From the IMG/VR virus record IMGVR_UViG_3300023184_000626, positions 1 to 20,180 of that record: 20,180 nt of DNA. The stretch is one strand, 5' to 3'. This DNA is from a virus. The notes under the pieces are model-generated. The model did not search any database. It worked only from the letters and a program-made list of their open reading frames with translations, and was not told the DNA's origin. A program made the position numbers and the translations under genes. Numbering within the stretch: position 1 is the stretch's first letter; every line of letters starts with the position of its first letter. This document shows positions 1-20,180 of the stretch, piece after piece.

Positions 1-45
1 ATAAAAGGAACAAATGAATTAAAAGTTAAAATAACTAAATTATAA
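1..45 (+). CDS. C-terminal end of an upstream gene (partial)
   Basis: Frame 1 is open from the window edge to a TAA at 43-45 and would encode IKGTNELKVKITKL. The other two forward frames are closed by stops within the first 20 bases. The gap to the next start is only 16 bases, matching the tight packing of the following genes, so this is probably the last 14 codons of another structural gene. Too little is present to name a function, and a non-coding leader cannot be excluded. Confidence 0.35.
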   Translation: MKGTNELKVKITKL

Positions 46-61
46 TAATATTTATTATATT

Positions 62-784: not shown

Positions 785-793
785 TTATAATGT

Positions 794-1501: not shown

Positions 1502-1506
1502 AATAT

Positions 1507-2142: not shown

Positions 2143-2164
2143 AACGTAATAAACTTAATTGATT

Positions 2165-2175
2165 TTATATTTATA
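2165..2175 (+). promoter_or_regulatory. TTATATTTATA element before endonuclease/gp13
   Basis: The 11-base sequence TTATATTTATA sits in the short gap after the third LamG gene and ends 4 bases before the endonuclease ATG. The same 11-mer stands before each of the three large fibre genes. It is probably a phage promoter or leader element. The T4 late box TATAAATA would be its reverse complement, so it is not that box in the expected orientation. Before the endonuclease arrived it would have served gp13. Confidence 0.5.
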
Positions 2176-2179
2176 ATCA

Positions 2180-2191
2180 ATGAGTGCTAAT
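2180..2191 (+). repeat. 12-base direct repeat, left copy (matches 2938-2949)
   Basis: ATGAGTGCTAAT at the start of the endonuclease is identical to the first 12 bases of gp13 at 2938-2949. The two copies bracket the endonuclease exactly, like a target-site duplication or a recombination scar. Confidence 0.85.
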
Positions 2192-2941: not shown

Positions 2942-2949
2942 GTGCTAAT
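2938..2949 (+). repeat. 12-base direct repeat, right copy (matches 2180-2191)
   Basis: ATGAGTGCTAAT forms the first four codons (MSAN) of gp13 and also contains the endonuclease stop TGA at 2939-2941. It equals the first 12 bases of the endonuclease gene. Recombination between the copies would remove the endonuclease and restore an intact gp13 behind its promoter. Confidence 0.85.
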
Positions 2950-4638: not shown

Positions 4639-5616
4639 TGGACAGGAAATAAAAACAATCCAGTACCTAATTACACGGATAAAACACAGATTAATCCCGT
4701 ATCTGCTAATGTTGTAAATCCTGCATTAGATACTAGAAGAGATCAAGATCCGAGAAAAAATAAAACAATTACATTATTGGATATTGATACATCTGTATTG
4801 GAATATCTACAAAATGTAATCAATCCAACTGTTGTAGACGCTGGTCAAAATGTTAAAGTACCAATTTTATATGGTAATCCTGAAAGATGGAAAGCTGGAA
4901 AGGTTGATGGATTTTTAAGAGATTATCAAGGTAAAATTCAAATACCAGCAATAATGTTCAAAAGAAATACATTTGGTAAAAATGAAAGTTTAACCACTTT
5001 AAATAGGTATTTAACTTATCCAGTCATCACAAAATTCAGTGAAAAGAACAAGTATGATAAATTTAGTGTGTTAAATAATAAAAGCGCACCTACCAATCAA
5101 ATATTTGCAGTAACATTGCCTGATCACGTTAAAGTTGAATATGAATTCATGGTGTGGACTGAATATGTTGAACAAATGAATTATGTTTTGGAAAAAATTA
5201 ACTTTGCATCAGAGGATTATTGGGGTGATCCACAAAGATTCAAGTTTAGAGTAAGTGTAGGAAGTTACACCAACAACATTGAAGTGTCAAGTGATAAAGA
5301 CAGAATGGTAAGAACTACATTTCCAATGACAGTATATGCATATTTGTTGGCTGATAGTTTTGAAGATAGAAAATCAACCGTTCAAAGACTTTTAACACCA
5401 AGAAAAGTAAATATTGTAGCAGAAACTGTCACCAGTGCGCAAATGGATGCAATAAACAAAGAAGTTAAAAACAAGAGTTATAACAATCCATCTGAACCTT
5501 ATTATAATACTGGCGTGGGTATGTCTTCTAATGATGATAGTTATAGAATTCCTGTCCCAGAAATTATTGATAATATAGAAAAATCAACTGAAGTACAAGG
5601 TTATACAAAATCATGA
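4636..5616 (+). CDS. 15: T4 gp15-like tail sheath terminator (tail completion) protein
   Basis: Tail-terminator protein, 326 residues, expected to form the ring at the head-proximal end of the tail tube and sheath that binds the neck. Evidence: QNVKVPILYGNPERWKAGK (71-89) resembles the KFIRVPITYASKEHF region of T4 gp15. It is followed by QIPAIMFKRN and LTYPVI (102-131), then HVKVEYEFMVWTEYVEQMNY (164-183), matching the T4 IKMIYELSIFTRYEDDM segment, and a strand RTTFPMTVYAYLL (226-238) near the end of the core. It is longer than T4 gp15 (about 272) because of a polar N-terminal extension of about 65 residues. Gene order after gp13 and gp14 is as in T4. The leader has no Shine-Dalgarno sequence. 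Confidence 0.78.
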   Translation: MWTGNKNNPVPNYTDKTQINPVSANVVNPALDTRRDQDPRKNKTITLLDIDTSVLEYLQNVINPTVVDAGQNVKVPILYGNPERWKAGKVDGFLRDYQGKIQIPAIMFKRNTFGKNESLTTLNRYLTYPVITKFSEKNKYDKFSVLNNKSAPTNQIFAVTLPDHVKVEYEFMVWTEYVEQMNYVLEKINFASEDYWGDPQRFKFRVSVGSYTNNIEVSSDKDRMVRTTFPMTVYAYLLADSFEDRKSTVQRLLTPRKVNIVAETVTSAQMDAINKEVKNKSYNNPSEPYYNTGVGMSSNDDSYRIPVPEIIDNIEKSTEVQGYTKS

Positions 5617-5634
5617 TCTTTTTATTAATTACTT

Positions 5635-5645
5635 TTATATTTATA
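5635..5645 (+). promoter_or_regulatory. TTATATTTATA element before first fibre gene
   Basis: Exact copy of the TTATATTTATA element, in the 70-base gap between gp15 and the gene at 5687, 41 bases before that ATG. This is the one instance with room for a normal transcribed leader. No hairpin terminator is visible after gp15, so the fibre gene may be read both from this site and by readthrough. Confidence 0.5.
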
Positions 5646-5673
5646 GCCAACCATTATAACGTAAACTAATTCA

Positions 5674-5689
5674 ACAATTTTAATTTATG
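5674..5689 (+). repeat. 16-base repeat at fibre-gene start, copy 2 (matches 4623-4638)
   Basis: ACAATTTTAATTTATG ends in the ATG of the fibre gene and is identical to the sequence ending in the gp15 ATG. Here it is wholly non-coding, whereas copy 1 overlaps the end of gp14. Confidence 0.7.
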
Positions 5690-7627
5690 CCATATCCGAA
5701 TGACAACAAACTAAACATAGTAATATCCCAAACAAGCGGAAGCGCAGATAATACTGGGAAATTTCCATTTACAGAAAGAATAATTAGCGGTAGTAATCTT
5801 TTTATACTTACTGATGCAAATGGTAACTTGACAGGAAGCACAAGTATTCCTGGCGGAAGTTTTACAAATTTGACAGTAACCTCTTTGACTGCAAGTTTTA
5901 TTAGTTCAAGTGGTGGAATCACAAGTTCAGCTGAATATATTACTGGACCATTAACTGTTCTAGGTACTTCTACATTATCAACATTAAATGCAACAAATAT
6001 CACCGCAAGTACCGGATTAAGTGCAAGTAATATTTGGTTTAGTAATAGTATGAACTATTCAGAAACCATGGCAACTGGTTCACTTACTGCACCTGATCTT
6101 AATTTTATTAGCACTGCTACTACAGGCTCTGATGTTATGTTTAATATCAGTGCAACCGCATTAACTGGTAGTGCAGTTGCAGTATTAATCAATGCTGTAG
6201 GATCTCAAACATCATATGCAATTAGTGCAAGTAATGGTATAATTGCTGGTACAGATTTTATTGCTAGAAATATCACATCAAGCAATTTGACTGTTACTGA
6301 TAACGTTACTTTTGGTACCGCAACATCAGATGTTATTCAAATTACTGGTTCAACTAGTATAAGTGGTAGTTTAACTATCACAGGAAACATTGCTGGTACA
6401 ATTGATAGTGCAAGTGCAGTATTGATTACTGATACTCCAACTACTGCAGGAACATATTATGTGACTTTTGTGGACGGAACTACTGGTGTAAGAGCTTTAA
6501 GAACTGATAGCTCTACACTAACATGGAATCCATCAACAAATACATTATCTAGCAGCGGAAATTTATATGTAGGTGGTGGAACAATTGATGGACCAAATGG
6601 TACAGTAAATTTATTTGCATCTGCAACAGGAATAAATGTTGGTAATTCTCTTAATACTCCTTTAACTACATTTTTTGGTGATGTAAAATTAGCCACCGGA
6701 TTAATTAAAGGAAGTGATGGTTCTTCAGGATTACAAGTTCAAAGTTATGGTATTCAAGTTTATGGAAATTCAATTAGTTCTTCTGCTGGCACTACTAACA
6801 TCATCCTAAGTACAAATCAAGATATAACTTCTAGTCGTAATTTGAGTGTTGCTGGTACAACTCAAGCAACTGCATGGAATAATGGTGCTTTGACTGTTGC
6901 TGGTGGTGTTGGAATTGGTAAGAATTTGTATGTAAGTGGATCAACATTCTTATATGGTGATTTAACAATTTACGGTACTGGTTCAGTAGTTAATATCAGC
7001 TCAAGTACAATAATAATTGGTGATAACAGAGTTGTATTAAATGCAGCTACTCCAATTCAACGTTATGCTGGCATAGACGTATTTGACAGTGGTAGTGGTA
7101 CATATACAAACAGCGTAACCAGTTCTCTACTATGGGACGGATTAAATGATAATTGGCTGTTAGTAAGCAACAATCAATTGACTGGAAATCCATTAACACA
7201 ATCCAGTGCAATAATGATTGGTGGACCAAGTGGAAGTTTTGGAAATGAACAATTGTTAACTACAAATTATATTCCAAAAGCACAATCCACAGGTAAAAAT
7301 TTACAAAACAGTTCATTGATTGATGATGGTATTACACTATCTTATGCTGGTACTGGTATATCTTCTTCACAAGTTACTTCATCACAACTAACTGTAGCTT
7401 ATACAGGCAGCATTACTTATGCTACTGGTGTGTATATTACATATTCAACTGGTTCATTTACAACAATTACTATTACCACTGGAAGTAGTCCTGGTGTAGG
7501 TGCTCAAGTTCCTTCAAGTCCAACTGCAACTGGATTAGCTGGTCAAATAAATGTGGATAATAACTTTATTTATGTTTATACAAATCAAGTTTGGAAGAGA
7601 GTTCCACTATCAACTTGGTTAGCGTAA
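5687..7627 (+). CDS. Beta-rich tail-fibre/virion structural protein
   Basis: Predicted fibre-type structural protein, 646 residues, very rich in Ser, Thr, Gly and Asn and almost free of Cys. The N-terminal part (about 1-60, VISQTSGSADNTGKFPFTE then IISGSNLFILTDANGNLTGS) resembles the corresponding part of the next gene. It is followed by short beta repeats of the type NLTVTSLTAS and TLNATNITAS. Residues about 106-184 form a module shared with the next gene. Further on come ALTVAGGVGIGKNLYVSGST (about 400-420), a VVNISSSTIIIGDNRVVLNA stretch, and a C-terminus reading QINVDNNFIYVYTNQVWKRVP. Such proteins form trimeric beta-helical shafts or baseplate and fibre attachments in T4-like phages; the exact place in the virion is unknown. 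It lacks an S74 domain. A hairpin follows the gene. Confidence 0.7.
   Translation: MPYPNDNKLNIVISQTSGSADNTGKFPFTERIISGSNLFILTDANGNLTGSTSIPGGSFTNLTVTSLTASFISSSGGITSSAEYITGPLTVLGTSTLSTLNATNITASTGLSASNIWFSNSMNYSETMATGSLTAPDLNFISTATTGSDVMFNISATALTGSAVAVLINAVGSQTSYAISASNGIIAGTDFIARNITSSNLTVTDNVTFGTATSDVIQITGSTSISGSLTITGNIAGTIDSASAVLITDTPTTAGTYYVTFVDGTTGVRALRTDSSTLTWNPSTNTLSSSGNLYVGGGTIDGPNGTVNLFASATGINVGNSLNTPLTTFFGDVKLATGLIKGSDGSSGLQVQSYGIQVYGNSISSSAGTTNIILSTNQDITSSRNLSVAGTTQATAWNNGALTVAGGVGIGKNLYVSGSTFLYGDLTIYGTGSVVNISSSTIIIGDNRVVLNAATPIQRYAGIDVFDSGSGTYTNSVTSSLLWDGLNDNWLLVSNNQLTGNPLTQSSAIMIGGPSGSFGNEQLLTTNYIPKAQSTGKNLQNSSLIDDGITLSYAGTGISSSQVTSSQLTVAYTGSITYATGVYITYSTGSFTTITITTGSSPGVGAQVPSSPTATGLAGQINVDNNFIYVYTNQVWKRVPLSTWLA
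6003..6239 (+). repeat. Module shared between the two fibre genes, copy 1
   Basis: This stretch aligns without any gap to 9621-9857 (constant offset of 3618 bases) and is in the same reading frame. Shared landmarks include the Trp-containing SNIWFSNSM / SNVWFGNSM, TGSLTAPD, ATALTGSAVA and GSQTSYAISASNG. Flanking sequence diverges quickly. Confidence 0.85.
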
Positions 7628-7654
7628 AATAACTTGAAAATGTTTAAGTAATTG

Positions 7655-7686
7655 ATAACCCAAGATAATAATAAGTCTTGGGTTAT
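7655..7686 (+). terminator. Perfect 11-bp hairpin between fibre genes
   Basis: ATAACCCAAGA (7655-7665) is perfectly complementary to TCTTGGGTTAT (7676-7686) around a 10-base loop, 28 bases after the fibre-gene stop. The stem is stable for this AT-rich DNA (GC core CCC/GGG). The following bases ATATTTATA are AT-rich but not a clean T-run, so it is probably a terminator or RNA-processing/stability hairpin. The right arm runs directly into a TTATATTTATA element. Confidence 0.65.
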
Positions 7687-7696
7687 TATATTTATA
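7686..7696 (+). promoter_or_regulatory. TTATATTTATA element, first of a pair
   Basis: Exact TTATATTTATA, beginning at the last base of the hairpin arm and followed by CAAA. A second copy lies 26 bases further on, so the gap before the 1568-residue fibre gene has the element twice. Confidence 0.42.
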
Positions 7697-7711
7697 CAAA
7701 CTGAAATAGTC

Positions 7712-7722
7712 TTATATTTATA
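7712..7722 (+). promoter_or_regulatory. TTATATTTATA element before second fibre gene
   Basis: Exact TTATATTTATA followed by G, ending 4 bases before the ATG at 7727. If this copy acts as a -10 box, the transcript would start at or inside the start codon. The pair with 7686-7696 may mean the upstream copy is the promoter and this one has another role, for example in the leader. Confidence 0.45.
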
Positions 7723-7726
7723 GAAT

Positions 7727-10700
7727 ATGCCAATTGGAAGCACAAATGTATATAACTCAGGAGATTTAATACTCAGCACAGTAAGTGGTTCTGGTACATC
7801 TTTCATTGAAACAAAAATAATAGCGGCAACTAGTAGTTTAATTTTATTTAATGCGTCAGGAACGCTTACTTCTCAATCTTTAAATAGTACTACCGTTGGC
7901 ACATCCAGTTTTGTAAGTGGCAGCACCTCAATAATTACAAATCTTACCGCAAGTAATATTAGTGCAAGTAGTAAAATTCAAGCAAATCAGTTAACTGCTA
8001 GTAGTATTCTTGCTAGTAATGGACCGTTGATAGTTACTGGTAGTAATGCTTATGTACAAATGTTTCCTGTTGGAGGATATTCATTACCATCTAATTTAAC
8101 TGCAAGTTATATTTACACCAGTGGAAGTACAAATGATATGTACTTCACACAATACAACGGTCCATATACCAATACAACACGTTTAAGATGGATAGAAAGT
8201 AACTTATATACTGGAATATTACATGGTGGTGTATTGACTAGTACTCCTGGTTCAACAACGTTTACAGTTACTAATGGTGAGGGTATAATTGTTACAATGA
8301 ATGCGTTTACGGCAAGTGCTCCGTATCCAACCGTCAAATTAGTTAGTTGGCCTACATCAACTCAACCAATTATTAACAGTGGAAGTGCTAAGATAACATA
8401 TGTTGGTATTGATAATGTAGGAGCAATAGTACAACAAACAAACGCATGGGGCAGTAGTGATATAAATCAGTGGGATAATCAAATTGCTTTGGGTGTTGTA
8501 TTACATTTGAGTGGAAGTGTAAGTAACGGTGTATTTAATAGTCCTCAGATATCATATGCAAATCCACAACAAGCAGATGACTTTTTCAGATCATTTGGTC
8601 CGTTAAAAATTAGTGGACACACACTACAAGCAAGTGGAAGCAGTCCAACATTAAGTATTAAAAAATCAGGCGGTACTGCTTATAGAGAAGGTGCAAATTA
8701 TTTAATAAATCCAAATCATCCAAGTACTGTTGTTGAAAATGCAATAACTTCTAGCAAGATTTATAGATATTATCTTTCAGGATCTACACCCGTAATTGAT
8801 ACGGGCGTAGCTAATGCAGGTTATACAACAATTGATAATGATAATTATGTAAATACCGCAACTGGTCAATTGACATCTGTTGGTAATAGTAATTGGACAG
8901 TACAAAGAGTATTTTGGATTCCTAACAGTCCTACCAATGCATTTCTGGTATATTATGGTAATGCAAGTTATCCAACTTTATTGGATGCAGTAAATGCAAA
9001 AGATAGTGAACCATTTACAGAAGCACCAAATACTGCATTAAATGGTATATTTGTTGGTTATATTATTATTGAAGGTGGTGCAGGTAGAGATTTATTAGAT
9101 TCTACAGAATGTACAATAATTCAAGGTGGGTTGTTTAGAAATGTTGGTGGTGTTGGTAGTAGTGGTACAGCTCCTGTGTCTACTACATTGGCTGGATTGA
9201 GTGACGTAGCTTTATCAGGTTTATCTGCGGGTGATTTATTGGTATATGGTGGCGGTCAATGGAACAATAATAAAACATTAACAGGAAATTATATTGTTAG
9301 TGGATCATTGAGTGTTACTTCAGGCGTTACTGCAAATTTGACAGGCACAAGTAGTTGGGCAACAAATGCGGTAACATCAAGTTTTGCATTAACTGCAAGT
9401 TATGTGAATGGCAGTACGTCAATAATTACCAATCTTACTGCAAGTAATATTAGTGCAAGTGGTACAATAATTGCAAATTCATTTACAGGTTCATTTAGTG
9501 GTAGCATAACAAATGCAGTAACTGCAATATCAGCAAGTTTTTCAACAAACAGTTTAACCGCTTCATATTTAACACCAACCAACAGTTATACAATCACAAA
9601 TCTTACCGCAAGTAATATTAGTGCAAGTAACGCATTAAGTTCAAGTAATGTATGGTTTGGTAATAGCATGGTTTATGTTGAAACCATGATAACAGGTTCA
9701 TTAACTGCTCCTGATGTTAATTTTACAAGCACTGCTATAACTGGTTCTGATGTAATGATGAAAATTGATGCCACTGCATTAACTGGTAGTGCAGTTGCAT
9801 TACAAATCAATGCATCAGGATCTCAAACGTCATATGCAATTAGTGCAAGTAATGGTACTATTATTGGTACAATATTTAGCGGTAGTGCATTTAGTGGAAA
9901 TTTTACAGGCAGTGTTTTTGGAACAAGCAGTTGGGCCACAAACAGTTTGACTGCTTCATATTTAACACCAGCAAATAGTTATACAATTGCCGGATTGACC
10001 AATAATGGAAGTTTGTCACAACAAGGTACATTATCAATGGGATCTGGCTATCAACTTCTTGCTACAACAGGTACCGCACCAATTCCTGGAATTTCATTTG
10101 TTGGTGATACTAATACTGGCATATATGCACCAGCAGCAGATACACTTGGATTTTCTATAAGCGGAAGTGAAAGAGTCCGAATTGACAGTAATGGCAACGT
10201 TGGTATTGGTACAAGTAGTCCAGCCGCAGGATTAGATGTGAGCAAAGCAACATCTTACGTGGGTATTAATGGAACTGATACATTCCTTTATTTGAGAGGA
10301 TACAATACCGGCAGAACTGCAATTATAACAAATGCCGGTTCTTCAGGCAACTATAATGGTTTAGCAATAATTACCAATGAAACAAATGCCAATTCATTAT
10401 CTAGTTGGAGAATGGATATTGGTGGATATGATGGCATAAGTTATGGTACAGATAACTTTTGGATTGGTAGAACTCCATCAGGCGGATCATTGTCAAGATT
10501 TTTCTTTATTAACAATAGTGGCAACGTTGGTATTGGTACAACCTCACCTGGTGAAAAATTATCTGTAATATCTGGTTCAACAAGAATTGCATCAACATCT
10601 TTAGCTGGTGCACTTTTTCTTGGTAATGATAACAGTAATATATACTTACAAAGAGATAACAGTTATGATTTAAGTTTGGTTCAAAATGGTGATTCAAATA

Positions 10701-12433
10701 GTTCTTTATATTTAGCAAGTGCTGGTAGCGTATATGTAAACATTGATGCTAATAATAATGATACAGATAAGGCATTTATTGTACAAAATAATGCGCTTAA
10801 AGCTGGAACTGAATTGTTCAGAGTAAGTGAAACAGGTAATGTTGGTATAGGTTCTAGCAGTCCAGGTTCTAAATTAGAAGTAATTGGTGGTACAAACACT
10901 AGAATTAATTTGGGTAATATTGATGATGTTAATAGAGGCGGTAAATTAGAAATTATTTCTGGTAGTGTAACAGCTAGACAATTTTATGTTGGTACAAATA
11001 GTGCAATTTATAATTTAGTATTTGGCATTGATTCAATTGAAAAAATGCGTATTGATACGGCAGGTAATGTTGGTATTGGAACAACAAGTCCTGCTACTAC
11101 ATTAAACGTAAGCGGATCAACCAGAATAAGTGCTGGTGAATTGCAAATTGAAGGTGATAATGCATCAATAAGATTGTATAGAACCACAGGAATAAATTAT
11201 TTTGATTGGGCTAGTGGTCAAAATCTTTATTTTGGAACAGTCACATCCATTGGAGGTGCAGGTAGATCCAATAAAATGGTTTTATTGGATGGTGGTAACG
11301 TTGGTATAGGTACAGGAACCCCAGTTGATAAATTGCATGTATTAGGTTCAGTTACTGCTGGCGCAAATACATCAACCAGTGGAACTACAATACTTCAAGG
11401 ATATTATAATAATGGAAGTTTGACAGTATTAGGCTCTGAATTTAGTAGTGGTGGTCCATTTTTAGGTTACGGTGTATCACCATCAACCGCATCAGTAGCT
11501 TCATTTTTTAGTTCAACAGGAATAAACATTGTAAGATCTGCTTATATTCAAGATGGTGGCACCCATCGTTGGTATACAGGTCCAACACAAACTGTTGCTA
11601 TAGGAAGTTTAGCTTCATTGAGTGAAAGAATGCGTATTGACGGTAATGGTAATCTAGGTATAGGTACTACAAGCGGTACTACCAAATTATATGTATCCGG
11701 TTCAATTACAGCAACTGACGGGGCTTTTATATCAAATGTAACTACCGGCACTGATAGATATTTCTTGAATTTTTATGGTACTGCCACAAATCAAATATTT
11801 ACATTATATGAAAATAATAGCACTGCTTATTTAAATTCTTATAATACCATGGCTTTCAGAGCCAATCAACTTGGTGGATCTAACGGATATTTTGTATTTT
11901 CAGGAGCAAATGTTGGTATAGGAACAAGTAGTCCTGGTGCTAAATTAGAAATAACAGGATCATCAAGTGATGTATTATTTAATATAAATTCACCAATTAG
12001 TGGAAATATAATATATGTAAGTGGAAGTGGTCGTGTTGGTATAAATAAATCCACCCCAATATCAGCACTTGATGTCAGTGGAAGTGTAACAATAACTGGT
12101 TCATTGAATCTAACTACAAATATAACTTGTTTATCATTAACAGAAACATCTACAGAAGCAGTTAAATATAATATATCACCACTTCCAAGTCAATTGGAAA
12201 ATGTTTTGAAATTAAAACCCGTATCATTTAATTATAAAACTAACAATAAACATAGTATTGGTTTAATTGCAGAAGAAGTGGCTAAAATATATCCTGAATT
12301 TACATCTGAAACCAATGATTCAATTAGTTATGGTAAAATAACCTCCGTATTAATTCAAAGTATTAAAGAATTAAAAAATATCATAGATAATCAACAAAAA
12401 CAAATTGAGGATTTATCCAACAAATTGAAATGA
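7727..12433 (+). CDS. Large tail fibre with C-terminal S74 intramolecular chaperone
   Basis: Fibre or tailspike-type protein, 1568 residues. In order: an N-terminal part with SLILFNASGTLTSQSLNS and LTASNISAS repeats (1-105); a less repetitive, probably globular region (about 105-480) including LLDAVNAKDSEPF and GIFVGYIIIEGGA; a GLSDVALSGLSAGDLLVYGG segment (about 489-515) common in phage fibres; GTSSWAT/TASY repeats and a module shared with the preceding gene (about 632-710); eight GNVGIG(T)-type shaft modules (Gly at 823, 932, 1037, 1113, 1190, 1308, 1393, 1435); and an S74 endosialidase-type chaperone (about 1468-1568) with IGLIAEEVAKIYPEF and a terminal coiled coil. In known S74 proteins this domain trimerises the fibre and then cleaves itself off using a Ser-Lys pair; here S1475 and K1480 have the right spacing. 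Receptor specificity is not visible. Confidence 0.82.
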   Translation: MPIGSTNVYNSGDLILSTVSGSGTSFIETKIIAATSSLILFNASGTLTSQSLNSTTVGTSSFVSGSTSIITNLTASNISASSKIQANQLTASSILASNGPLIVTGSNAYVQMFPVGGYSLPSNLTASYIYTSGSTNDMYFTQYNGPYTNTTRLRWIESNLYTGILHGGVLTSTPGSTTFTVTNGEGIIVTMNAFTASAPYPTVKLVSWPTSTQPIINSGSAKITYVGIDNVGAIVQQTNAWGSSDINQWDNQIALGVVLHLSGSVSNGVFNSPQISYANPQQADDFFRSFGPLKISGHTLQASGSSPTLSIKKSGGTAYREGANYLINPNHPSTVVENAITSSKIYRYYLSGSTPVIDTGVANAGYTTIDNDNYVNTATGQLTSVGNSNWTVQRVFWIPNSPTNAFLVYYGNASYPTLLDAVNAKDSEPFTEAPNTALNGIFVGYIIIEGGAGRDLLDSTECTIIQGGLFRNVGGVGSSGTAPVSTTLAGLSDVALSGLSAGDLLVYGGGQWNNNKTLTGNYIVSGSLSVTSGVTANLTGTSSWATNAVTSSFALTASYVNGSTSIITNLTASNISASGTIIANSFTGSFSGSITNAVTAISASFSTNSLTASYLTPTNSYTITNLTASNISASNALSSSNVWFGNSMVYVETMITGSLTAPDVNFTSTAITGSDVMMKIDATALTGSAVALQINASGSQTSYAISASNGTIIGTIFSGSAFSGNFTGSVFGTSSWATNSLTASYLTPANSYTIAGLTNNGSLSQQGTLSMGSGYQLLATTGTAPIPGISFVGDTNTGIYAPAADTLGFSISGSERVRIDSNGNVGIGTSSPAAGLDVSKATSYVGINGTDTFLYLRGYNTGRTAIITNAGSSGNYNGLAIITNETNANSLSSWRMDIGGYDGISYGTDNFWIGRTPSGGSLSRFFFINNSGNVGIGTTSPGEKLSVISGSTRIASTSLAGALFLGNDNSNIYLQRDNSYDLSLVQNGDSNSSLYLASAGSVYVNIDANNNDTDKAFIVQNNALKAGTELFRVSETGNVGIGSSSPGSKLEVIGGTNTRINLGNIDDVNRGGKLEIISGSVTARQFYVGTNSAIYNLVFGIDSIEKMRIDTAGNVGIGTTSPATTLNVSGSTRISAGELQIEGDNASIRLYRTTGINYFDWASGQNLYFGTVTSIGGAGRSNKMVLLDGGNVGIGTGTPVDKLHVLGSVTAGANTSTSGTTILQGYYNNGSLTVLGSEFSSGGPFLGYGVSPSTASVASFFSSTGINIVRSAYIQDGGTHRWYTGPTQTVAIGSLASLSERMRIDGNGNLGIGTTSGTTKLYVSGSITATDGAFISNVTTGTDRYFLNFYGTATNQIFTLYENNSTAYLNSYNTMAFRANQLGGSNGYFVFSGANVGIGTSSPGAKLEITGSSSDVLFNINSPISGNIIYVSGSGRVGINKSTPISALDVSGSVTITGSLNLTTNITCLSLTETSTEAVKYNISPLPSQLENVLKLKPVSFNYKTNNKHSIGLIAEEVAKIYPEFTSETNDSISYGKITSVLIQSIKELKNIIDNQQKQIEDLSNKLK
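9621..9857 (+). repeat. Module shared between the two fibre genes, copy 2
   Basis: Counterpart of 6003-6239, ungapped and in the same frame. It lies between LTASNISAS repeats and a GTSSWAT repeat, about 630 residues into this protein against about 106 in the neighbour, so the module has moved relative to its surroundings. Confidence 0.85.
10193..12060 (+). repeat. Eight GNVGIG-type shaft modules
   Basis: Degenerate protein repeats, each ending in a form of (M)RID-GNVGIGTTSP--KL-V, start near 10193, 10520, 10835, 11063, 11294, 11648, 11903 and 12029. Spacing is 42-118 residues, so the signature is conserved while the inserts vary. The last copy (GRVGINKSTPISALDV) is the most divergent and leads into the S74 chaperone. 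Confidence 0.8.
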
Positions 12434-12460
12434 TTTTAAATGATAAGTAACCAAACTGTT

Positions 12461-12471
12461 TTATATTTATA
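12461..12471 (+). promoter_or_regulatory. TTATATTTATA element before collagen-like gene
   Basis: Exact TTATATTTATA followed by G in the 47-base gap after the S74 fibre gene, ending 9 bases before the ATG at 12481. No Shine-Dalgarno sequence separates it from the start (AGAGTGAATT). Confidence 0.48.
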
Positions 12472-12480
12472 GAGTGAATT

Positions 12481-15400
12481 ATGGCAATTTTACAGTCAAC
12501 CACAATAACAGGTAGTCTAATAATAAGTTCATCTGCTGCAACACAACCATTGCAGATTTTGAATTTATCATCAAGCGCAAGCAATACAACCTTTTTGACA
12601 GTTGATGCAAGTGGCGTTGTATCAAAAACAACATCTGGAGCGTCTGGTTCAAGTGGTACATCTGGTAGTTCCGGCACATCCGGCTCAAGTGGTACGTCTG
12701 GATCAAGTGGATCTTCTGGTACATCAGGCAGTTCAGGTTCATCTGGATCAAGCGGTTCTAGTGGCACAAGCGGATCAAGTGGAACAAGTGGTAGTTCAGG
12801 TACTAGTGGAAGTAGTGGTTCCAGCGGAACATCAGGCAGTTCTGGATCTAGTGGCACAAGTGGATCTTCTGGTACTAGTGGCTCATCAGGCACATCAGGA
12901 ACGCCTGGTAATAGTGGTACATCCGGTTCAAGTGGATCTTCAGGAACAAGCGGATCATCTGGTTCAAGCGGAAGCAGTGGTACATCAGGTACTCCTGGCA
13001 ATAGTGGAACAAGCGGATCTAGTGGTAGTTCTGGAACATCAGGCAGTTCAGGTTCTAGTGGTACAAGCGGGTCATCAGGCAGTAGCGGTACATCAGGCAG
13101 TTCTGGATCTAGTGGCACAAGCGGATCAAGCGGTACTAGTGGTTCCAGTGGAACATCAGGCAGTTCTGGATCTAGTGGAACGTCAGGTAGTTCAGGATCA
13201 TCAGGCACAAGTGGTTCTTCAGGCACATCAGGTTCAAGTGGTTCATCTGGAACAAGTGGATCAAGTGGTACATCTGGAACTCCCGGCAATAACGGAACAA
13301 GTGGATCATCTGGTTCAAGTGGAACGTCAGGCAGTTCAGGATCATCAGGCACTTCTGGTTCTAGTGGATCAAGTGGTACCAGCGGTTCAAGCGGAACAAG
13401 TGGAAGTAGCGGAACATCAGGCAGTTCTGGTTCAAGCGGAACAAGTGGAAGTAGCGGAACAAGCGGATCAAGTGGAAGTAGCGGAACATCAGGCAGTTCT
13501 GGTTCAAGCGGAACAAGTGGAAGTAGTGGTAGTTCCGGATCAAGTGGTACCAGCGGATCATCAGGCACATCAGGTAGTAGCGGAACTAGTGGTGCTCCTG
13601 GTGGTAGCGGAACATCAGGCAGTAGCGGTTCTTCAGGCACATCTGGGTCAAGTGGTACCAGCGGATCATCCGGTACATCCGGTAGTAGCGGAAGTAGTGG
13701 AACAAGCGGATCATCTGGTTCAAGTGGAACGTCAGGCAGTTCAGGTACTAGTGGTAGTTCTGGAACAAGTGGATCAAGTGGATCAAGCGGAACATCAGGC
13801 AGTTCTGGTTCAAGTGGTACCAGTGGTAGTTCAGGCACATCTGGAACTCCTGGTAATAGCGGTACCAGTGGATCATCTGGATCAAGTGGAACAAGTGGTA
13901 GTTCTGGTACATCTGTCACTGTAAGTGGTACAACTGGATATATAGTTAAATTTAGTAGCGCATCTACAATTGCAAACACAGCTACACCAATATTTGAAAC
14001 AGGATCATGTATTGGTATAGGAACTACAGTTCCTGGTTCATTATTGCAAGTTCATGCTGCGGCAGGTGGAAATAACTGGTCATGGTTTAATGGTAATGTT
14101 GGATCTACTTTACCGACTGGATTTACTACGGGTGTATCAATTGGAAGAAATTATAGTAGTGGCACAAGTGAATCAAATTTAGTATGGGCACAAGGTATAT
14201 CTTCAGCACAATATTTTGCAATAGGAAAAGTTTCTGGGAGCAATTCATATTCAGAACAATTAAGAATTGATAGTAATGGCAACGTTGGTATAGGCACAAC
14301 CAGTCCATCTTCAAAATTACATATAGATGATGCAACTGCTCCTTGGATAACCATAAGTAGAAGTGGAACGCCTACATGGCAATTAAGAAATAACTATCCT
14401 ACAAATCAATACGGTTTTAGTTTTAATAATACTACAGCTGGTACTGTTCCATTCTTTATTGGAGCTGGAGGAAATATAGGTATAGGATTAGACAGTCCTG
14501 CTGCTAAATTGGATATAGTAGGTACTAATACTACAATTGCGTTATCATTTGGTACCACAGTTCCAAATAATCCATTGTTTATAAATACTTATGGTGGTTA
14601 TGCTGGTATTGGTATGGATCAAACGACCGCTGGATTAAGATTAGTAGGTGATTATAGTGGCGGTACAAATCCATTAGTAGATATAGGTTATTATACAAGT
14701 GGTACAGTTGCTCATGCAAACTGGGTAAGTAGATTAAAAGTATTAAATAATGGTAACGTTGGTATAGGCACAACAAGTCCTGCTAGTAAATTACATATAA
14801 GCGGATCAGGACAAACGGTACTGCGTCTTGATTCAGACACTACCACAAACATATGTCAGTATCAGGTAAAAGCAAATGGTGATGGCGTACTTATTATGGG
14901 CGTGTATGGTACTGCAGGTGCAGGAAATAATTTTGGAGTTACTGCAGCAGGTCAAGCATATGTTGGTACAACTACACTCAGTTCAGCATATCCAACATCA
15001 TTGGTAATTGGAAATGTATCTGCAATACCAATAGTATTTAGTACAACTAATACTGAAAGAATGCGTATTACCGGTACAGGTGAAGTTGGTATAGGTACAA
15101 CGTCTGCACTTACAACAGGTGGTACTGCTCAAGTTAGTATTTCAACTAACACTAATGCAGTTGCACTTTCATTTGGTGCAAGTAACTCAGATTTGTCTTA
15201 TATAAGAAGACTTTCAACAGGCCTTTTTCAATGGCAAACATTTAATGGTGCAAATGCTGGTGAAATACAATTACAACCATATGGTGGTAACGTAGGTATT
15301 GGCACAACCAGTGCAAATGCTAAACTGAATGTAAATAGTAGCGGTTCACTTGCTGCTGGATCAGTTGTATTTAGAGTAGAAGGATCAAGTGGTTCTCTAT

Positions 15401-17667
15401 TTGCTGTAGATGATAGTTTAAGCGGTTCACTATTCAGTGTAAATGATATCTCAGGTCTACCAATTCTTGAAGTGTTCAGTGACAACAGAGTGGTTGGCGG
15501 AACATTCAATTCAAACGCATTTGTTATTACAGGCAGTTGTGTTGGTATTGGTACATCAGTTCCTGCAAATAGATTACACGTATCTGCTTCATCTAATCCA
15601 GTTAAATTGGACGGTCTAACAGTTAATGCAACAGGTTATTATTTAACAGTAGATAATACTACAGGCGTTGTTTATAAATCAACTGCTACTGCTGCAGGTA
15701 GTAGTGGTACAAGCGGAAGTAGTGGTTCATCAGGCACATCAGGTACTCCTGGTAACAGTGGTACAAGCGGTTCAAGCGGTTCAAGTGGTACATCAGGATC
15801 AAGTGGTTCATCAGGCACATCAGGTACTCCTGGTAATAGCGGAACAAGCGGTTCAAGCGGTTCAAGTGGTACAAGTGGTGCTCCAGGTGGTACAGGTCCA
15901 CAAGGACCACAAGGCCGTCAAGGCGTATCTGGATCAAGTGGTTCATCTGGTTCAAGCGGATCATCCGGATCTTCTGGATCTTCTGGATCAAGTGGTAACA
16001 GCGGATCAAGCGGAACATCAGGCACTCCTGGTAACAGTGGAACAAGTGGTTCATCTGGTTCTAGTGGTACAAGCGGTTCAAGTGGTAGTTCTGGAACATC
16101 TGGAACACCTGGTAATAGCGGTACAAGCGGATCAAGTGGATCAAGCGGAACAAGCGGTTCAAGCGGATCATCTGGAACATCAGGCACTCCTGGTAATAGC
16201 GGTACAAGCGGTTCAAGCGGTTCAAGCGGAACAAGTGGTTCACCTGGTGGTACAGGTCCACAAGGACCACAAGGTCGTCAAGGTGTAGCAGGCAACAATG
16301 GTAACAACGGATCAAGTGGTTCATCAGGTTCAAGTGGATCAAGCGGTAATAGTGGTAACAATGGATCTTCTGGTTCAAGCGGATCAAGTGGTTCATCTGG
16401 GTCAAGCGGATCAAGTGGTAACAGCGGATCAAGCGGAACTAGTGGTACTCCTGGTAACAGTGGAACAAGTGGTTCATCTGGTTCTAGTGGTACAAGCGGA
16501 TCTAGTGGTAGTTCTGGAACATCTGGAACACCTGGTAACAGTGGAACAAGTGGTTCTTCAGGAACAAGTGGTGCTGCTGGTTCACCTGGTGGTACAGGAC
16601 CACAAGGACCACAAGGTCGTCAAGGCGTAGCAGGTAACAATGGTAACAACGGATCTTCCGGTTCAAGTGGATCAAGCGGATCAAGTGGTAATAGTGGTAA
16701 CAACGGTAATAACGGATCTTCTGGTTCGAGCGGATCTTCTGGTTCAAGCGGATCAAGTGGTGTTAGTGGTAACAACGGTAACAACGGATCTTCTGGTTCA
16801 AGCGGATCAAGTGGTGTTAGTGGTAACAACGGTAACAACGGATCAAGTGGATCAAGTGGTACCAGTGGTGCTGCTGGACCTGCTGGACCTGCTGGTTCAG
16901 CAAATGCAAGTGGTACAACAAATTATCATGCTAAATTTACTGCGACTACTACACTTGGTAATGGTATCATTTATGATGATGGTAGCAATATTTGTATTGG
17001 AACAACCACTGCTACAGGAACATTAACTTTACCTACTACTACAGCTTCTGCTACTCCATCTAATATAAGTTTTGGAACTTCTTACGCAGATACAGTTTCT
17101 TTTTCTAAATTACAACTTAAATTTTATCATGATGGTACTAGCGCATACGGTTTAGGAGTAACCGCTGGTCAGCTTAATATAATGGCATATTCCACCGGTA
17201 TACATGCTTTTTATAATGGTGCTACTTTAGTAGCTCAATTCAATGCAAGCGGAAATTTGGGTGTTGGTGTAACGCCATCATCTTATAAAGGAGATTTTAA
17301 CGGTCAAGTTCATGCTACATGTTTTCCAACTTCTTCAGATAGAAGATTCAAGAAAAAGATCGTTCCAATTGAAAATGCGCTAGATAAGGTAATGAAATTA
17401 AAAGGCGTAAAATATGAATGGAATGAATTTATAAATAGTGTTAGAGATGGTTATGCATTAAATGTTCCAGTTATTGGATTTGTAGCTCAAGATTTACAAG
17501 AAGTAATTCCTGAATTGGTTTGTGAGTGGGAATTAAATGATGAAGTCAAGGATGCTCGAGCTGTGGACTATTCAAGAATGGTTGCGGTTTTGACTGAAGC
17601 AATAAAAGAACAACAACATCAAATTGAAGATTTAAAAAACAGATTGACAGTTTTAGAAAATAAATGA
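12481..17667 (+). CDS. Giant collagen-like fibre with S74 chaperone
   Basis: Fibre protein, 1728 residues. Order: N-terminal beta segment (1-52); collagen-like block 1 (Gly53-Gly476, 141 unbroken Gly-X-Y triplets, mainly GSS, GTS, with occasional GTP-GNS and one GAP-GGS); a beta-rich middle (477-1072) with about seven GNVGIGTTSP-type modules; collagen-like block 2 (Gly1073-Gly1472, 133 unbroken triplets with three GTGPQGPQGRQGV inserts and GNN triplets); a short connector containing NLGVGVTPSSYKGDF; and an S74 chaperone (about 1616-1728) with SDRRFKKKI, IGFVAQDLQEVIPELV and a C-terminal coiled coil. Ser1619 and Lys1624 fit the S74 self-cleavage pair. Trimerisation by S74 suits a collagen triple helix, but the blocks are nearly free of Pro, so an extended flexible or glycosylated shaft is also possible. 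Probably a side or tail fibre. The stop overlaps the next start (ATGA). Confidence 0.85.
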   Translation: MAILQSTTITGSLIISSSAATQPLQILNLSSSASNTTFLTVDASGVVSKTTSGASGSSGTSGSSGTSGSSGTSGSSGSSGTSGSSGSSGSSGSSGTSGSSGTSGSSGTSGSSGSSGTSGSSGSSGTSGSSGTSGSSGTSGTPGNSGTSGSSGSSGTSGSSGSSGSSGTSGTPGNSGTSGSSGSSGTSGSSGSSGTSGSSGSSGTSGSSGSSGTSGSSGTSGSSGTSGSSGSSGTSGSSGSSGTSGSSGTSGSSGSSGTSGSSGTSGTPGNNGTSGSSGSSGTSGSSGSSGTSGSSGSSGTSGSSGTSGSSGTSGSSGSSGTSGSSGTSGSSGSSGTSGSSGSSGTSGSSGSSGSSGTSGSSGTSGSSGTSGAPGGSGTSGSSGSSGTSGSSGTSGSSGTSGSSGSSGTSGSSGSSGTSGSSGTSGSSGTSGSSGSSGTSGSSGSSGTSGSSGTSGTPGNSGTSGSSGSSGTSGSSGTSVTVSGTTGYIVKFSSASTIANTATPIFETGSCIGIGTTVPGSLLQVHAAAGGNNWSWFNGNVGSTLPTGFTTGVSIGRNYSSGTSESNLVWAQGISSAQYFAIGKVSGSNSYSEQLRIDSNGNVGIGTTSPSSKLHIDDATAPWITISRSGTPTWQLRNNYPTNQYGFSFNNTTAGTVPFFIGAGGNIGIGLDSPAAKLDIVGTNTTIALSFGTTVPNNPLFINTYGGYAGIGMDQTTAGLRLVGDYSGGTNPLVDIGYYTSGTVAHANWVSRLKVLNNGNVGIGTTSPASKLHISGSGQTVLRLDSDTTTNICQYQVKANGDGVLIMGVYGTAGAGNNFGVTAAGQAYVGTTTLSSAYPTSLVIGNVSAIPIVFSTTNTERMRITGTGEVGIGTTSALTTGGTAQVSISTNTNAVALSFGASNSDLSYIRRLSTGLFQWQTFNGANAGEIQLQPYGGNVGIGTTSANAKLNVNSSGSLAAGSVVFRVEGSSGSLFAVDDSLSGSLFSVNDISGLPILEVFSDNRVVGGTFNSNAFVITGSCVGIGTSVPANRLHVSASSNPVKLDGLTVNATGYYLTVDNTTGVVYKSTATAAGSSGTSGSSGSSGTSGTPGNSGTSGSSGSSGTSGSSGSSGTSGTPGNSGTSGSSGSSGTSGAPGGTGPQGPQGRQGVSGSSGSSGSSGSSGSSGSSGSSGNSGSSGTSGTPGNSGTSGSSGSSGTSGSSGSSGTSGTPGNSGTSGSSGSSGTSGSSGSSGTSGTPGNSGTSGSSGSSGTSGSPGGTGPQGPQGRQGVAGNNGNNGSSGSSGSSGSSGNSGNNGSSGSSGSSGSSGSSGSSGNSGSSGTSGTPGNSGTSGSSGSSGTSGSSGSSGTSGTPGNSGTSGSSGTSGAAGSPGGTGPQGPQGRQGVAGNNGNNGSSGSSGSSGSSGNSGNNGNNGSSGSSGSSGSSGSSGVSGNNGNNGSSGSSGSSGVSGNNGNNGSSGSSGTSGAAGPAGPAGSANASGTTNYHAKFTATTTLGNGIIYDDGSNICIGTTTATGTLTLPTTTASATPSNISFGTSYADTVSFSKLQLKFYHDGTSAYGLGVTAGQLNIMAYSTGIHAFYNGATLVAQFNASGNLGVGVTPSSYKGDFNGQVHATCFPTSSDRRFKKKIVPIENALDKVMKLKGVKYEWNEFINSVRDGYALNVPVIGFVAQDLQEVIPELVCEWELNDEVKDARAVDYSRMVAVLTEAIKEQQHQIEDLKNRLTVLENK
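12637..13908 (+). repeat. Collagen-like block 1 (141 Gly-X-Y triplets)
   Basis: Nine-base units GGN-NNN-NNN repeated without a break in Gly register from codon 53 to codon 476. X is almost only Ser or Thr and Y almost only Ser; rare GTP-GNS, GTP-GNN and GAP-GGS punctuate it. Ser is spelled AGT, AGC, TCA, TCT and TCC in shifting order, so DNA units are rarely identical in tandem. GC content is visibly higher than in neighbouring genes because of Gly codons. Confidence 0.93.
14268..15600 (+). repeat. GNVGIG-type shaft modules between collagen blocks
   Basis: The middle part of the protein carries a series of NGNVGIGTTSP--KLHI-type signatures, near 14275, 14467, 14752, 15079, 15286 and 15538, plus an earlier form (SCIGIGTTVPGSLLQV) near 14005. 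These are the same module family as in the preceding fibre gene, showing that the two genes draw on one set of parts. Confidence 0.75.
15697..16896 (+). repeat. Collagen-like block 2 (133 Gly-X-Y triplets, supermodules)
   Basis: Uninterrupted Gly-X-Y from codon 1073 to 1472. A higher-order unit is visible: the insert GTGPQGPQGRQGV occurs at 15889-15927, 16249-16287 and 16591-16629, that is 120 and 114 codons apart. Each is preceded by SST-rich and GTP-GNS triplets and followed by GSS or GNN triplets. The single Arg of each insert is the only charged residue type in the block. Confidence 0.92.
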
Positions 17668-18374
17668 TAATACATAATATGTTTTCATTTTTTGAAAAAA
17701 TTTATTGTATTAATTTAAGTAGTCGTGTTGATAGATGGAATAACTGCCTTAATCAATTTTCTAAATTTGGTATATCTAATGTGCAAAGATTTGAGGCCAT
17801 AAAGTATAATCACCTCAAACTTTCAGCAAAAGCTAATGCGCATATTGGGTGTGTTCTTTCACATTACAATATAATAAAAGAAGCTAAACTTAAAAATTAT
17901 TCTAATATTTTGGTTTTAGAAGATGATTTTTTGTTTCTTAAAGAACCGGATGAATTTAATATAAAATTGAAAAAAAGCTTAAATGAACTTCCATTAGATT
18001 GGGATCTTTTTTATCTAGGTTCTTATTTTGTAAAAGGATATGATTATGAACCAACTGAAAGATATTCTGATAATTTGGTAAAGGTCAATACTGGATTTTG
18101 CACACATTCATTGGCATATTCTTCTAGAGGAATGGATAAAATATTAAAAAGCTTAAAACTAAACTCAGAATTAGACATTTTACATTATTCTGAGGAATAT
18201 GAATCAATTGCTTGGTATTTAGTCAGAGAATTTCAATATGAAAACAATTGTTTTGCATCAAATGAATTGTTAAGTTCTCAAATATCTGGATTTTCTGATA
18301 TAGAAGGTAAATTCTTAGATTACTCTAATAATTTTAGACAGTGTTATAAACAAATTAACTTACATCAGAAATAA
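17664..18374 (+). CDS. GT25-family glycosyltransferase
   Basis: Predicted sugar transferase of the LPS-biosynthesis/collagen-galactosyltransferase family GT25, 236 residues. Motifs: IYCINLSSRVDRW (13-25), the N-terminal NL-R-DRW signature; GCVLSHYNIIKEA (62-74); NILVLEDDFLFL (81-92), with the acidic EDD expected to hold the metal and sugar nucleotide; and LDWDLFYLGSY (111-121). No membrane segment is seen. The ATG at 17664 overlaps the stop of the collagen-like gene (ATGA), suggesting coupled translation; an alternative start at 17679 (MFSFFEKIYC) is equally good for the fold. The context suggests that it modifies the adjacent fibre or a surface glycan. The family includes collagen beta-galactosyltransferases, but the acceptor here cannot be read from sequence. 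Its 3' end overlaps the converging gene by 20 bases. Confidence 0.82.
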   Translation: MIIHNMFSFFEKIYCINLSSRVDRWNNCLNQFSKFGISNVQRFEAIKYNHLKLSAKANAHIGCVLSHYNIIKEAKLKNYSNILVLEDDFLFLKEPDEFNIKLKKSLNELPLDWDLFYLGSYFVKGYDYEPTERYSDNLVKVNTGFCTHSLAYSSRGMDKILKSLKLNSELDILHYSEEYESIAWYLVREFQYENNCFASNELLSSQISGFSDIEGKFLDYSNNFRQCYKQINLHQK

Positions 18375-19596
18375 TACAAACGTGTTGTTCAGTACTTGGA
18401 TTTGGAATATCTAAATTTGACGTTTGAGTTTTTTCATCATATAAAAAGTCATTGATACCCAATTTTAAAAATCTATTGTGTATTAATGGATCATATGAAT
18501 TTTTTATAATTCTAGTTAATCTTTGTATTTCTTTGTTTCTTTCTGATGTGGTATTACCATCTTTATTTCTGTACTGTATGTATCCTAGTTTTGGTATATA
18601 TGCAATTTTTGTGGTTAGAAATGTTTTGATTATCAATTCATAATCATCACATACATGTAAATTTGGATTGTGTCCTCCTATTTTAAAGTAAATTTCTTTT
18701 TTCCATGATCTAATATGATTGGGAACTCCTACAATGTGTCTAATAGTTTTTGGATTTATTTTTGGACCATTGACTACATCATACATTTTCCCCTTGTATA
18801 ATTCTTTTCTGTATGATCCATAACCGTAAGAAAATCCTTCTGGATATTTAACGCATGTACCATCTTCTTCATATACTTCAGTAGAATCAGTGTATACAAA
18901 TCCGACATCCTTGTATTTTTGAAAAGTTTTTACCACATAATCCAGACATTTTTCTGTGAGTTCATCATCATGATCTAATTCACACAAATATTCACCGTAA
19001 CACAATCCGGCTGCCCATCTTTTGAGTTCACCAATACTTCCTGATTTTCTTGGATTTTTGAATATTTTTATTCTATGATCAATTTCACTTATTTCTTTTA
19101 AAAGATTAAATGTTTGATTGTTGTCATCAGAATCATCAATTATGATCCATTCCCAATTTTGGTATGTTTGATTTAATAGTGATTGTAGTGGTCTAAATAT
19201 TTTTGATCCTGTTTTGTGGGCAGGAGTAAATACAGAAACTAATGGATTATTTGATGCTGCATCATCATAATTTAATGTGGTTTGAAGATAACAATGTATT
19301 ATACTTTTTCCCAATTGATCAAGTGAAGGTGGAGATGGATAACTCAACCATTTTGAACGTACACTAAAAGGTGAACTTGATAATTTTTTATATTTACTCC
19401 AATCACCAAAAGTTACAAAAACGTGAGGATCATATTGTTTTATGATATCATTTAACGCATGATCATTTTCATAATTTAAAATATTAAATGAATTTTCCTC
19501 ATACTCAGGCGCATTTTTGTCAGAGTATAAAACATCTATTTGTCTGCCAAATATACACACAGTAATTTTACTGTTCTTTATAACATCTTTATGCAT
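18355..19596 (-). CDS. GT2-family glycosyltransferase with N-terminal extension
   Basis: Predicted GT-A fold glycosyltransferase, 413 residues. The catalytic domain begins at LVSVFTPAHKTG (119-130), followed by QSLLNQTYQNWEWIIIDDSDD (138-158), the DXD-type LDHDDE (207-212) for metal and sugar nucleotide, VGVPNHIRSWKKE (289-301) and CDDYELIIK (316-324), where an acidic pair near a hydrophobic helix is the usual base region. The first 115 residues form a separate domain with DPHVFVTFGDWSKYKKL (56-72), which I do not recognise as catalytic. It starts 1 base after the stop of the upstream minus-strand gene (TGATATG), so the two are one operon. It converges on the GT25 gene with a 20-base overlap. 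Likely role: protein or surface glycan modification; the substrate is unknown. Confidence 0.82.
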   Translation of the reverse strand: MHKDVIKNSKITVCIFGRQIDVLYSDKNAPEYEENSFNILNYENDHALNDIIKQYDPHVFVTFGDWSKYKKLSSSPFSVRSKWLSYPSPPSLDQLGKSIIHCYLQTTLNYDDAASNNPLVSVFTPAHKTGSKIFRPLQSLLNQTYQNWEWIIIDDSDDNNQTFNLLKEISEIDHRIKIFKNPRKSGSIGELKRWAAGLCYGEYLCELDHDDELTEKCLDYVVKTFQKYKDVGFVYTDSTEVYEEDGTCVKYPEGFSYGYGSYRKELYKGKMYDVVNGPKINPKTIRHIVGVPNHIRSWKKEIYFKIGGHNPNLHVCDDYELIIKTFLTTKIAYIPKLGYIQYRNKDGNTTSERNKEIQRLTRIIKNSYDPLIHNRFLKLGINDFLYDEKTQTSNLDIPNPSTEQHVCIISDVS

Positions 19597-19597
19597 A

Positions 19598-20180
19598 TCA
19601 TTTTTTTATGTTTTTGTATTGTTTATCAAATGTAATCTGATCAGTATCCATGTTTTGTGGATAATCATTACTTGATACGCTTATTCGTCCAACACTTATT
19701 AAATTATCTATATAGTACATATGTTTTCTTTTAATGTCAACAATAGATACAATTAAAATAGTGTCACCATAGAATATTTTACAATCATCATATATGTCAA
19801 AATAATCCTCTTTTTTTAAAAATATACAACAACCATATCCATATGGCACTATACCCGTGGTGTCTACAAGTAATAATTCATCATCATCATTATTTAAGGC
19901 AGTACTATTGTCTCTTATTCTTGAATTTTCATTAAATCCAATCAATCCAAGTTTTGGATTTTGATCTATAAACCTTTGAAAATTATTCAATACTGTAACA
20001 TAGTTGAAATAAATGTCATCATTCAATAAACAGATGTATTTATTTTTTGCTAACTTTACACCTAAATTCCAAGCGGGATTTACAAATATATTATTACTAC
20101 ATTTGACAATTATAATTCTCGGATCACTATCATAGAAATCTGAATGTGTATTGTCTATAATAATTAACTCTACATTCTTA
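19598..20180 (-). CDS. GT2-like glycosyltransferase, partial (start outside window)
   Basis: The reading frame is open from the window edge to the TGA at 19600-19598, giving 193 residues of the C-terminal and central parts. The edge-proximal translation begins KNVELIIIDNTHSDFYDS, then PRIIIVKCSNNIFVNPAWN, LGVKLAKNKYICLLNDDIYF. This is the classic GT2 order: IIIDN strand, NPAWNLGVKLAK helix, LLNDD metal site. A start near 20026 would be a TTG inside LLNDD and would delete the nucleotide-binding half, so the gene must extend beyond 20180. Later parts include GYGCCIFLKKEDY and FYGDTILI, the latter resembling the acceptor-side acidic motif. It is directly upstream of, and probably co-transcribed with, the next glycosyltransferase. 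Confidence 0.75.
   Translation of the reverse strand, partial: KNVELIIIDNTHSDFYDSDPRIIIVKCSNNIFVNPAWNLGVKLAKNKYICLLNDDIYFNYVTVLNNFQRFIDQNPKLGLIGFNENSRIRDNSTALNNDDDELLLVDTTGIVPYGYGCCIFLKKEDYFDIYDDCKIFYGDTILIVSIVDIKRKHMYYIDNLISVGRISVSSNDYPQNMDTDQITFDKQYKNIKK

Follow-up and report, generated by a model that had tools for sequence, protein, structure and literature searches.

Background

On Bacillus spores, the collagen-like protein BclA carries O-glycans on the Thr of Gly-X-Thr triplets, a cellular example that involves other enzymes than those considered here. Among viruses, Mimivirus possesses collagen-like proteins together with L230, a collagen-modifying enzyme that joins a lysyl hydroxylase to a glucosyltransferase, but it is a giant virus of eukaryotes. 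In this study, we describe a 20,180-bp DNA fragment of a phage from an aquatic setting (IMG/VR record IMGVR_UViG_3300023184_000626, positions 1 to 20,180; hereafter the window, meaning the whole stretch analysed) in which a gene for a collagen-like tail fibre is followed by a glycosyltransferase of family GT25, the first gene of an island of glycosyltransferases. The most likely function of this island, a reading in which we have moderate confidence, is to glycosylate the phage's own collagen-like fibre, with an O-heptosyltransferase of the TibC type starting the glycan and the GT25 and other transferases extending it.

The closest described counterparts of the presumed initiator are TibC and AAH, members of the bacterial autotransporter heptosyltransferase (BAHT) family (TIGR04414; PDB 4rap). 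TibC transfers heptose from ADP-heptose onto protein, with Ser but not Thr modified in the mapped peptide, and it requires Asp-110 and four Cys that bind iron (PMC4358343). The known targets of this family are Ser-rich, repeated surface adhesins, and the presumed phage target is likewise Ser-rich, repeated and adhesive; the phage proteins differ in that they frequently carry a fused GT4 domain and lie near a collagen-like fibre rather than an autotransporter gene, with an acceptor that is presumed. Phage-encoded Gly-X-Y sequences occur in the collagen-like proteins of E. coli O157 prophages, for which the parts of the account drawn on here indicate no glycosylation partner (PMC3368898). In the T4-like pelagimyophages and cyanomyophages, fibres and glycosyltransferases lie together at a hypervariable structural locus, the host-recognition cluster, which has been read as modifying host lipopolysaccharide (LPS), and no TibC-type or collagen link is described in the parts of that study used here (PMC7029224).

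The collagen-like fibre and its island

Structural genes place the window among T4-superfamily phages, and the fragment is the fibre end of such a genome together with the first three genes of an adjoining hypervariable glycosylation island. The fibre gene (12481..17667, plus strand) encodes 1,728 aa with matches to Pfam Collagen (PF01391, 364 bits) and to a PHROG tail fiber family (415 bits). Judged by sequence, the protein is collagen-like, with long uninterrupted Gly-X-Y runs: block 1 (12637..13914, plus strand) has 142 unbroken triplets with Ser/Thr at 95% of X and 96% of Y positions, and block 2 (15697..16902, plus strand) has 134 unbroken triplets that are about 70% Ser/Thr (X 67%, Y 72%), where Asn, Pro and Gln account for much of the remainder. 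Shuffling the protein 500 times produced no run longer than 8 triplets. The two blocks of the original prediction are thus recovered, with a recounted total of 276 triplets instead of 274; its description of X and Y as almost all Ser/Thr fits block 1 but not block 2, and the absence of Lys is borne out (0 Lys in either block). Ser codons of the TCN and AGY families alike are intermixed across the whole repeat, and the repeat is therefore maintained by selection on the protein. At the C-terminus lies a predicted Peptidase_S74 intramolecular chaperone (17335..17520, plus strand; PF13884, 56 bits, aa 1619-1680), a feature absent from the original prediction.

The GT25 open reading frame (ORF; 17664..18374, plus strand) is followed by a convergent family 2 glycosyltransferase (18355..19596, minus strand; PF00535, 61.9 bits), which overlaps it by 20 bp, and by a second member of family 2 (19598..20179, minus strand; PF00535, 27.9 bits) that is cut by the contig end. 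We collected relatives through a gene that lies downstream of the island and served as an anchor; their copies of it are 98% identical. Island content varies between close relatives: near relatives encode transferases of families 2, 4 and 9, some have family 34, and a 2-oxoglutarate (2OG)-Fe(II) oxygenase is also present (PF13661, 65 bits). Near relatives' island proteins match TIGR04414, the TibC/Aah autotransporter O-heptosyltransferase model, at 307, 305 and 202 bits, above its equivalog cut-off of 200 bits, and unrelated collagen phages also exceed this value (268 and 206 bits). The TibC-type gene is found in relatives with and without GT25 alike, as expected if the TibC-type enzyme, and not GT25, starts the glycan. 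The phage of the window presumably carries such a gene as well, the contig ending before its place.

Catalytic residues were located by alignment to 4rap/4rb4 and compared in 41 phage TibC-type sequences (40 fetched and one of the window's clade). All 41 retain the equivalent of Asp-110, and each of the iron-finger Cys (339/342/358/370) is present in 40/41. The sequences share a median of 40% identity in pairwise comparison, and the set falls into 31 clusters at 60%, and therefore it spans more than one lineage. No autotransporter gene was noticed in the gene maps, which show a collagen-like fibre instead, although no family-model search was made.

TibC-type genes track Ser/Thr-rich collagen

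We assessed the association in viral contigs for which the sole selection criterion was a DNA pattern of Ser/Thr-rich Gly-X-Y; the survey consists of limited samples, its statistics ignore phylogeny, and contigs often break within repeats, so that presence is under-counted. TIGR04414 was above cut-off in 38/100 Ser/Thr-rich collagen contigs, in none of 50 contigs with non-collagen S74 fibres and in none of 32 with low-Ser/Thr collagen (length-normalised p = 1.8e-6). When contigs were restricted to the 10-60 kb size class, the model was matched in 16/61 vs 0/48 and 0/23 of the respective controls. The low-Ser/Thr collagen search had itself returned eight matches to the model: six came from contigs in which Ser/Thr makes up roughly half of the collagen or more, one from a relative of the window that lacks GT25, and the last from G057, which has no such array in the sequence examined. 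The reverse test gave the same picture, with a Ser/Thr-rich Gly-X-Y array present in the flanks examined of 30 of the 61 non-redundant viral TibC-type loci but of none of 76 S74 loci. TibC-type genes also lie within 10 kb of the collagen array more often than expected (23/38 observed vs 14.4, p = 0.0005), these distances being upper bounds because arrays are known only inside the sequence examined. The TibC type is the sole transferase type that tracks Ser/Thr content; the broader idea that any transferase near a fibre does so found no support, since GT2 also occurs near low-Ser/Thr collagens (11/62 neighbouring ORFs).

Among 50,697 named phage records, a TibC-type query matched four, two of which are megaphage records identical in length and match. 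The only cultured phage of the four, Microcystis phage Mel-JY01, is also the closest cultured relative of the window, and it has a collagen ORF of 202 triplets (79% Ser/Thr) 1.7 kb upstream of its TibC-bearing gene; in megaphage LR756501 an array of 35 triplets lies at most 5 kb from the TibC-type copy. Within the one open-access collection of papers that we searched, no paper links phages, TibC-type heptosyltransferases and collagen-like fibres.

The annotation of Mel-JY01 (PP395634.1) deserves a separate remark. The deposited gene at 739-2298 on the minus strand is an antisense ORF inside the collagen repeats, and the actual collagen ORF, which runs along the plus strand at about 2-3052 and is cut by the record start, is mostly unannotated. 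The gene at 4750-8430 of the same record is labelled 'methyltransferase FkbM', and its C-terminal part is 42-43% identical to TibC-type O-heptosyltransferases.

Function of the island

From which genes are present and in what order, from the families they belong to, from the catalytic residues they keep and from the statistical association, we infer the fibre to be the acceptor, GT25 to extend the glycan and the coat to benefit the phage. Glycosylation would take place in the host cytoplasm during assembly, where an O-heptosyltransferase of the TibC type, whose gene near relatives have further along the island, would add heptose to the Ser of the Gly-Ser/Thr-Ser repeats. The remaining transferases, among them GT25 as a member that is optional and specific to its clade, would then build on the heptose to give a longer glycan, and the resulting coat could stiffen or protect the Pro-poor triple helix, or mask the fibre. 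Ser/Thr-rich collagen fibres are probably glycosylated, mostly by enzymes other than GT25, and the TibC-type enzyme is the likely initiator. O-linkage to Ser/Thr, and the notion of a phage glycosylating its own fibre, are plausible. The broader idea of the original prediction, that of phage-encoded fibre glycosylation, gains support through the association of TibC-type genes with Ser/Thr-rich collagen, but its choice of GT25 as the enzyme does not.

Several observations weigh against this assignment. The role of the fibre as acceptor is read from genomes, and the acceptors known for the TibC family are adhesins of the autotransporter type rather than triple helices (PMC4358343). In 62/100 Ser/Thr-rich collagen contigs, many of them fragments, no TibC-type gene was detected, and the non-collagen control contigs are shorter, belong to other lineages and are mostly not T4-like. 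There is no excess over chance of TibC-collagen proximity within 5 kb, and we dropped the notion of tight adjacency for this reason. Genes resembling heptose kinases showed no clear enrichment (5/50 vs 2/50), which makes ADP-heptose kinase unconvincing as a companion gene. Finally, glycosyltransferases occupy the same site in the collagen-free relatives G020 and G050.

This last observation also fits the main rival explanation, which we regard as possible but less likely: the island, GT25 included, may remodel the host cell-surface polysaccharide, either excluding competing phages or keeping progeny from sticking to debris, and it would adjoin the fibres since both belong to the host-recognition region. 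Pelagimyophages offer a precedent, their hypervariable host-recognition cluster of glycosyltransferases and tail fibres having been read, in the parts of the study used here, as modifying the host O-chain (PMC7029224). PF01755, the family of the GT25, is described as an LPS biosynthesis family, and G020, a more distant relative whose fibres lack collagen and which has other transferases at the site, carries its GT25 about 70 kb away within a large cluster of sugar-nucleotide and polysaccharide genes. However, host-surface remodelling leaves unexplained why TibC-type genes track the Ser/Thr content of collagen, being present in over a third of Ser/Thr-rich contigs and in none with low-Ser/Thr collagen, and the known activity of the TibC family is on protein Ser, not on LPS (PMC4358343).

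Alternatively, the island might modify another virion protein, such as a beta-structured fibre nearby or the non-collagen portion of the collagen fibre, with collagen merely co-occurring. TibC does act on repeated beta-helical adhesins (PMC4358343), and the relatives examined have long fibres without collagen alongside the site. Nevertheless, we consider this improbable, as the association is specific to Ser/Thr-rich collagen and is absent from the contigs with S74 fibres (0/50).

GT25 and the collagen fibre

Slightly less probable still, in our judgement, is that GT25 itself directly glycosylates the Ser/Thr of the Gly-X-Y repeats, as originally predicted. The gene as such is genuine: its product matches PF01755 at 44.5 bits (cut-off 24), the LEDD motif (L83, E86, D87, D88) is invariant across 12 phage GT25 proteins, and the predicted model (predicted local distance difference test 75.6, predicted template-modelling score 0.79) has the GT-A fold of known GT25 structures. 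Its top fold match is COLGALT1 (E 1e-13, template-modelling score 0.64; PDB 9evj, 9u7j), the human procollagen galactosyltransferase 1, which is also its nearest solved relative by sequence, and the fold matches include the GT25-like Mimivirus enzyme R655 (PDB 9crz). COLGALT1, a chain of more than 500 aa, differs from the single short protein of about 230 aa in the window, and its animal acceptor, hydroxylysine, is impossible here, as no Lys occurs in the 276 triplets. Cultured phages proved not to be close kin for this gene: the best match has 31% identity, all matches belong to megaphages, Lak phages and cyanophages, and a search at the DNA level matched nothing.

GT25 adjoins an S74 collagen fibre in 6/6 members of the window's clade. 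Four other close relatives (G036, G037, G041 and G042) keep a collagen fibre and the neighbouring genes at a GT25-minus site; here, no gene separates the convergent family 2 transferase from the collagen-like fibre, which is Ser/Thr-rich and has another kind of chaperone tail, and GT25 is neither found at the site nor matched on the whole contigs. GT25 therefore tracks one type of fibre 3'-end and not the collagen repeat. Conversely, GT25 lies away from collagen in G020, G049 and G053. The co-occurrence survey that had been proposed as a check found GT25 to be rare, above cut-off in 8/79 contigs chosen for Ser/Thr-rich Gly-X-Y, with only four having it beside a collagen ORF, each time within larger fused proteins. 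We thus rejected GT25 as a general partner of Ser/Thr-rich collagen, since a consistent pairing failed on both sides: collagen fibres without the transferase, and transferases located elsewhere, both occur among the relatives, largely the outcome that had been named in advance as refuting the prediction. The claim that GT25 glycosylates the fibre is unsupported as it was put forward, and a role as optional extender is the likelier one for GT25.

Fused transferases of 775-900 aa, combining GT4 with a GT25-like domain, adjoin collagen-like fibres in other phage groups (L445:8923-11310, L453:9031-11358, L451:5072-7525, L456:7373-10075), where they sit in the interval between fibre and tail sheath.

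In the window, the GT25 ORF overlaps the fibre stop through an ATGA at 17664, as had been noticed, but the overlap is not conserved. In all five relatives compared at this junction, whose GT25 is 83-95% identical to that of the window, the sequence is ATAA, and we therefore rejected translational coupling of the two genes through the overlap as a conserved feature. The start common to the relatives is ATG 17679 (MFSFF...), 11 nt past the fibre stop. Co-transcription of the fibre and GT25 genes is likely.

That GT25 and its neighbours are cargo of a recombination-prone region, functionally unlinked to the fibre, would agree with the differing island content of close relatives and with a homing-endonuclease-like gene that precedes the fibres both in the window and in relatives, but we think it very improbable given that the co-occurrence of TibC-type genes and collagen recurs across divergent phages.

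Other features of the window

The phage origin of the window is confirmed by its virus record and by a head-tail adaptor gene (PHROG connector match), whose product has its nearest cultured relatives in Mel-JY01 (47%) and Flavobacterium phage immuto (36%). The start of this gene overlaps by 4 nt a NUMOD3/homing-endonuclease-like gene (2180-2941), which has homologues at the matching position, upstream of the fibres, in several relatives. Before the adaptor gene, positions 62-2142 hold three tandem paralogues of 211-240 aa with a motif like LVLALDAANxKSYPGSGTTW, and their copy number differs among relatives.

Just upstream of the collagen-like fibre lies a second S74-type tail fibre without collagen repeats (7727..12433, plus strand; PF13884, 40.1 bits). 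The homologue of this gene in a close relative (L031:7908-10018; MPIGSTYVYN...) contains the same type of collagen repeat, so that the repeat occurs there inside a different fibre gene; collagen shafts therefore move between fibre genes. The 532-aa ORF that is antisense to the collagen-like fibre (12381-13979, minus strand; rich in Pro-Leu-Val/Asp) is an artefact, open only over the Gly-Ser/Thr repeats.

Oxygenases and wider implications

2OG-Fe(II) oxygenases resembling prolyl hydroxylases also adjoin collagen-like phage fibres, chiefly those that contain Pro and are low in Ser/Thr. Among fibre-neighbouring ORFs, PF13640 is matched by 13/62 near low-Ser/Thr collagen, 3/145 near Ser/Thr-rich collagen and 0/118 near non-collagen fibres. 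The loci are L192:10473-11768, L196:9570-10292, L203:15355-15918, L206:13317-13910, L225:3266-3859, L445:8300-8911, L451:4510-5094, L453:11365-11979 and L481:8346-8963, and a near relative of the window has an oxygenase at L128:4289-4996. These enzymes may hydroxylate the Pro of the fibre.

Phage glycosyltransferases are usually read as modifiers of the host surface or of DNA. The composition-specific link between TibC-type genes and collagen suggests instead that aquatic phages commonly have glycosylated virions, and it offers a possible explanation of what might stabilise phage collagens that are poor in Pro. With cultured Mel-JY01 at hand, fibre glycosylation can be tested by ordinary mass spectrometry. 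We tentatively propose, with somewhat less confidence than we have in the function of the island itself, an undescribed and widespread viral system in which TibC-type iron-finger O-heptosyltransferases and extenders such as GT25, often together with a 2OG-Fe(II) oxygenase, glycosylate Ser-rich collagen-like fibres. Such a system would widen the range of the BAHT family from bacterial to viral adhesins and might supply simple tools for O-glycosylating recombinant collagens. If the proposal is true, these phages would possess a viral counterpart of animal procollagen modification, built from different enzymes.

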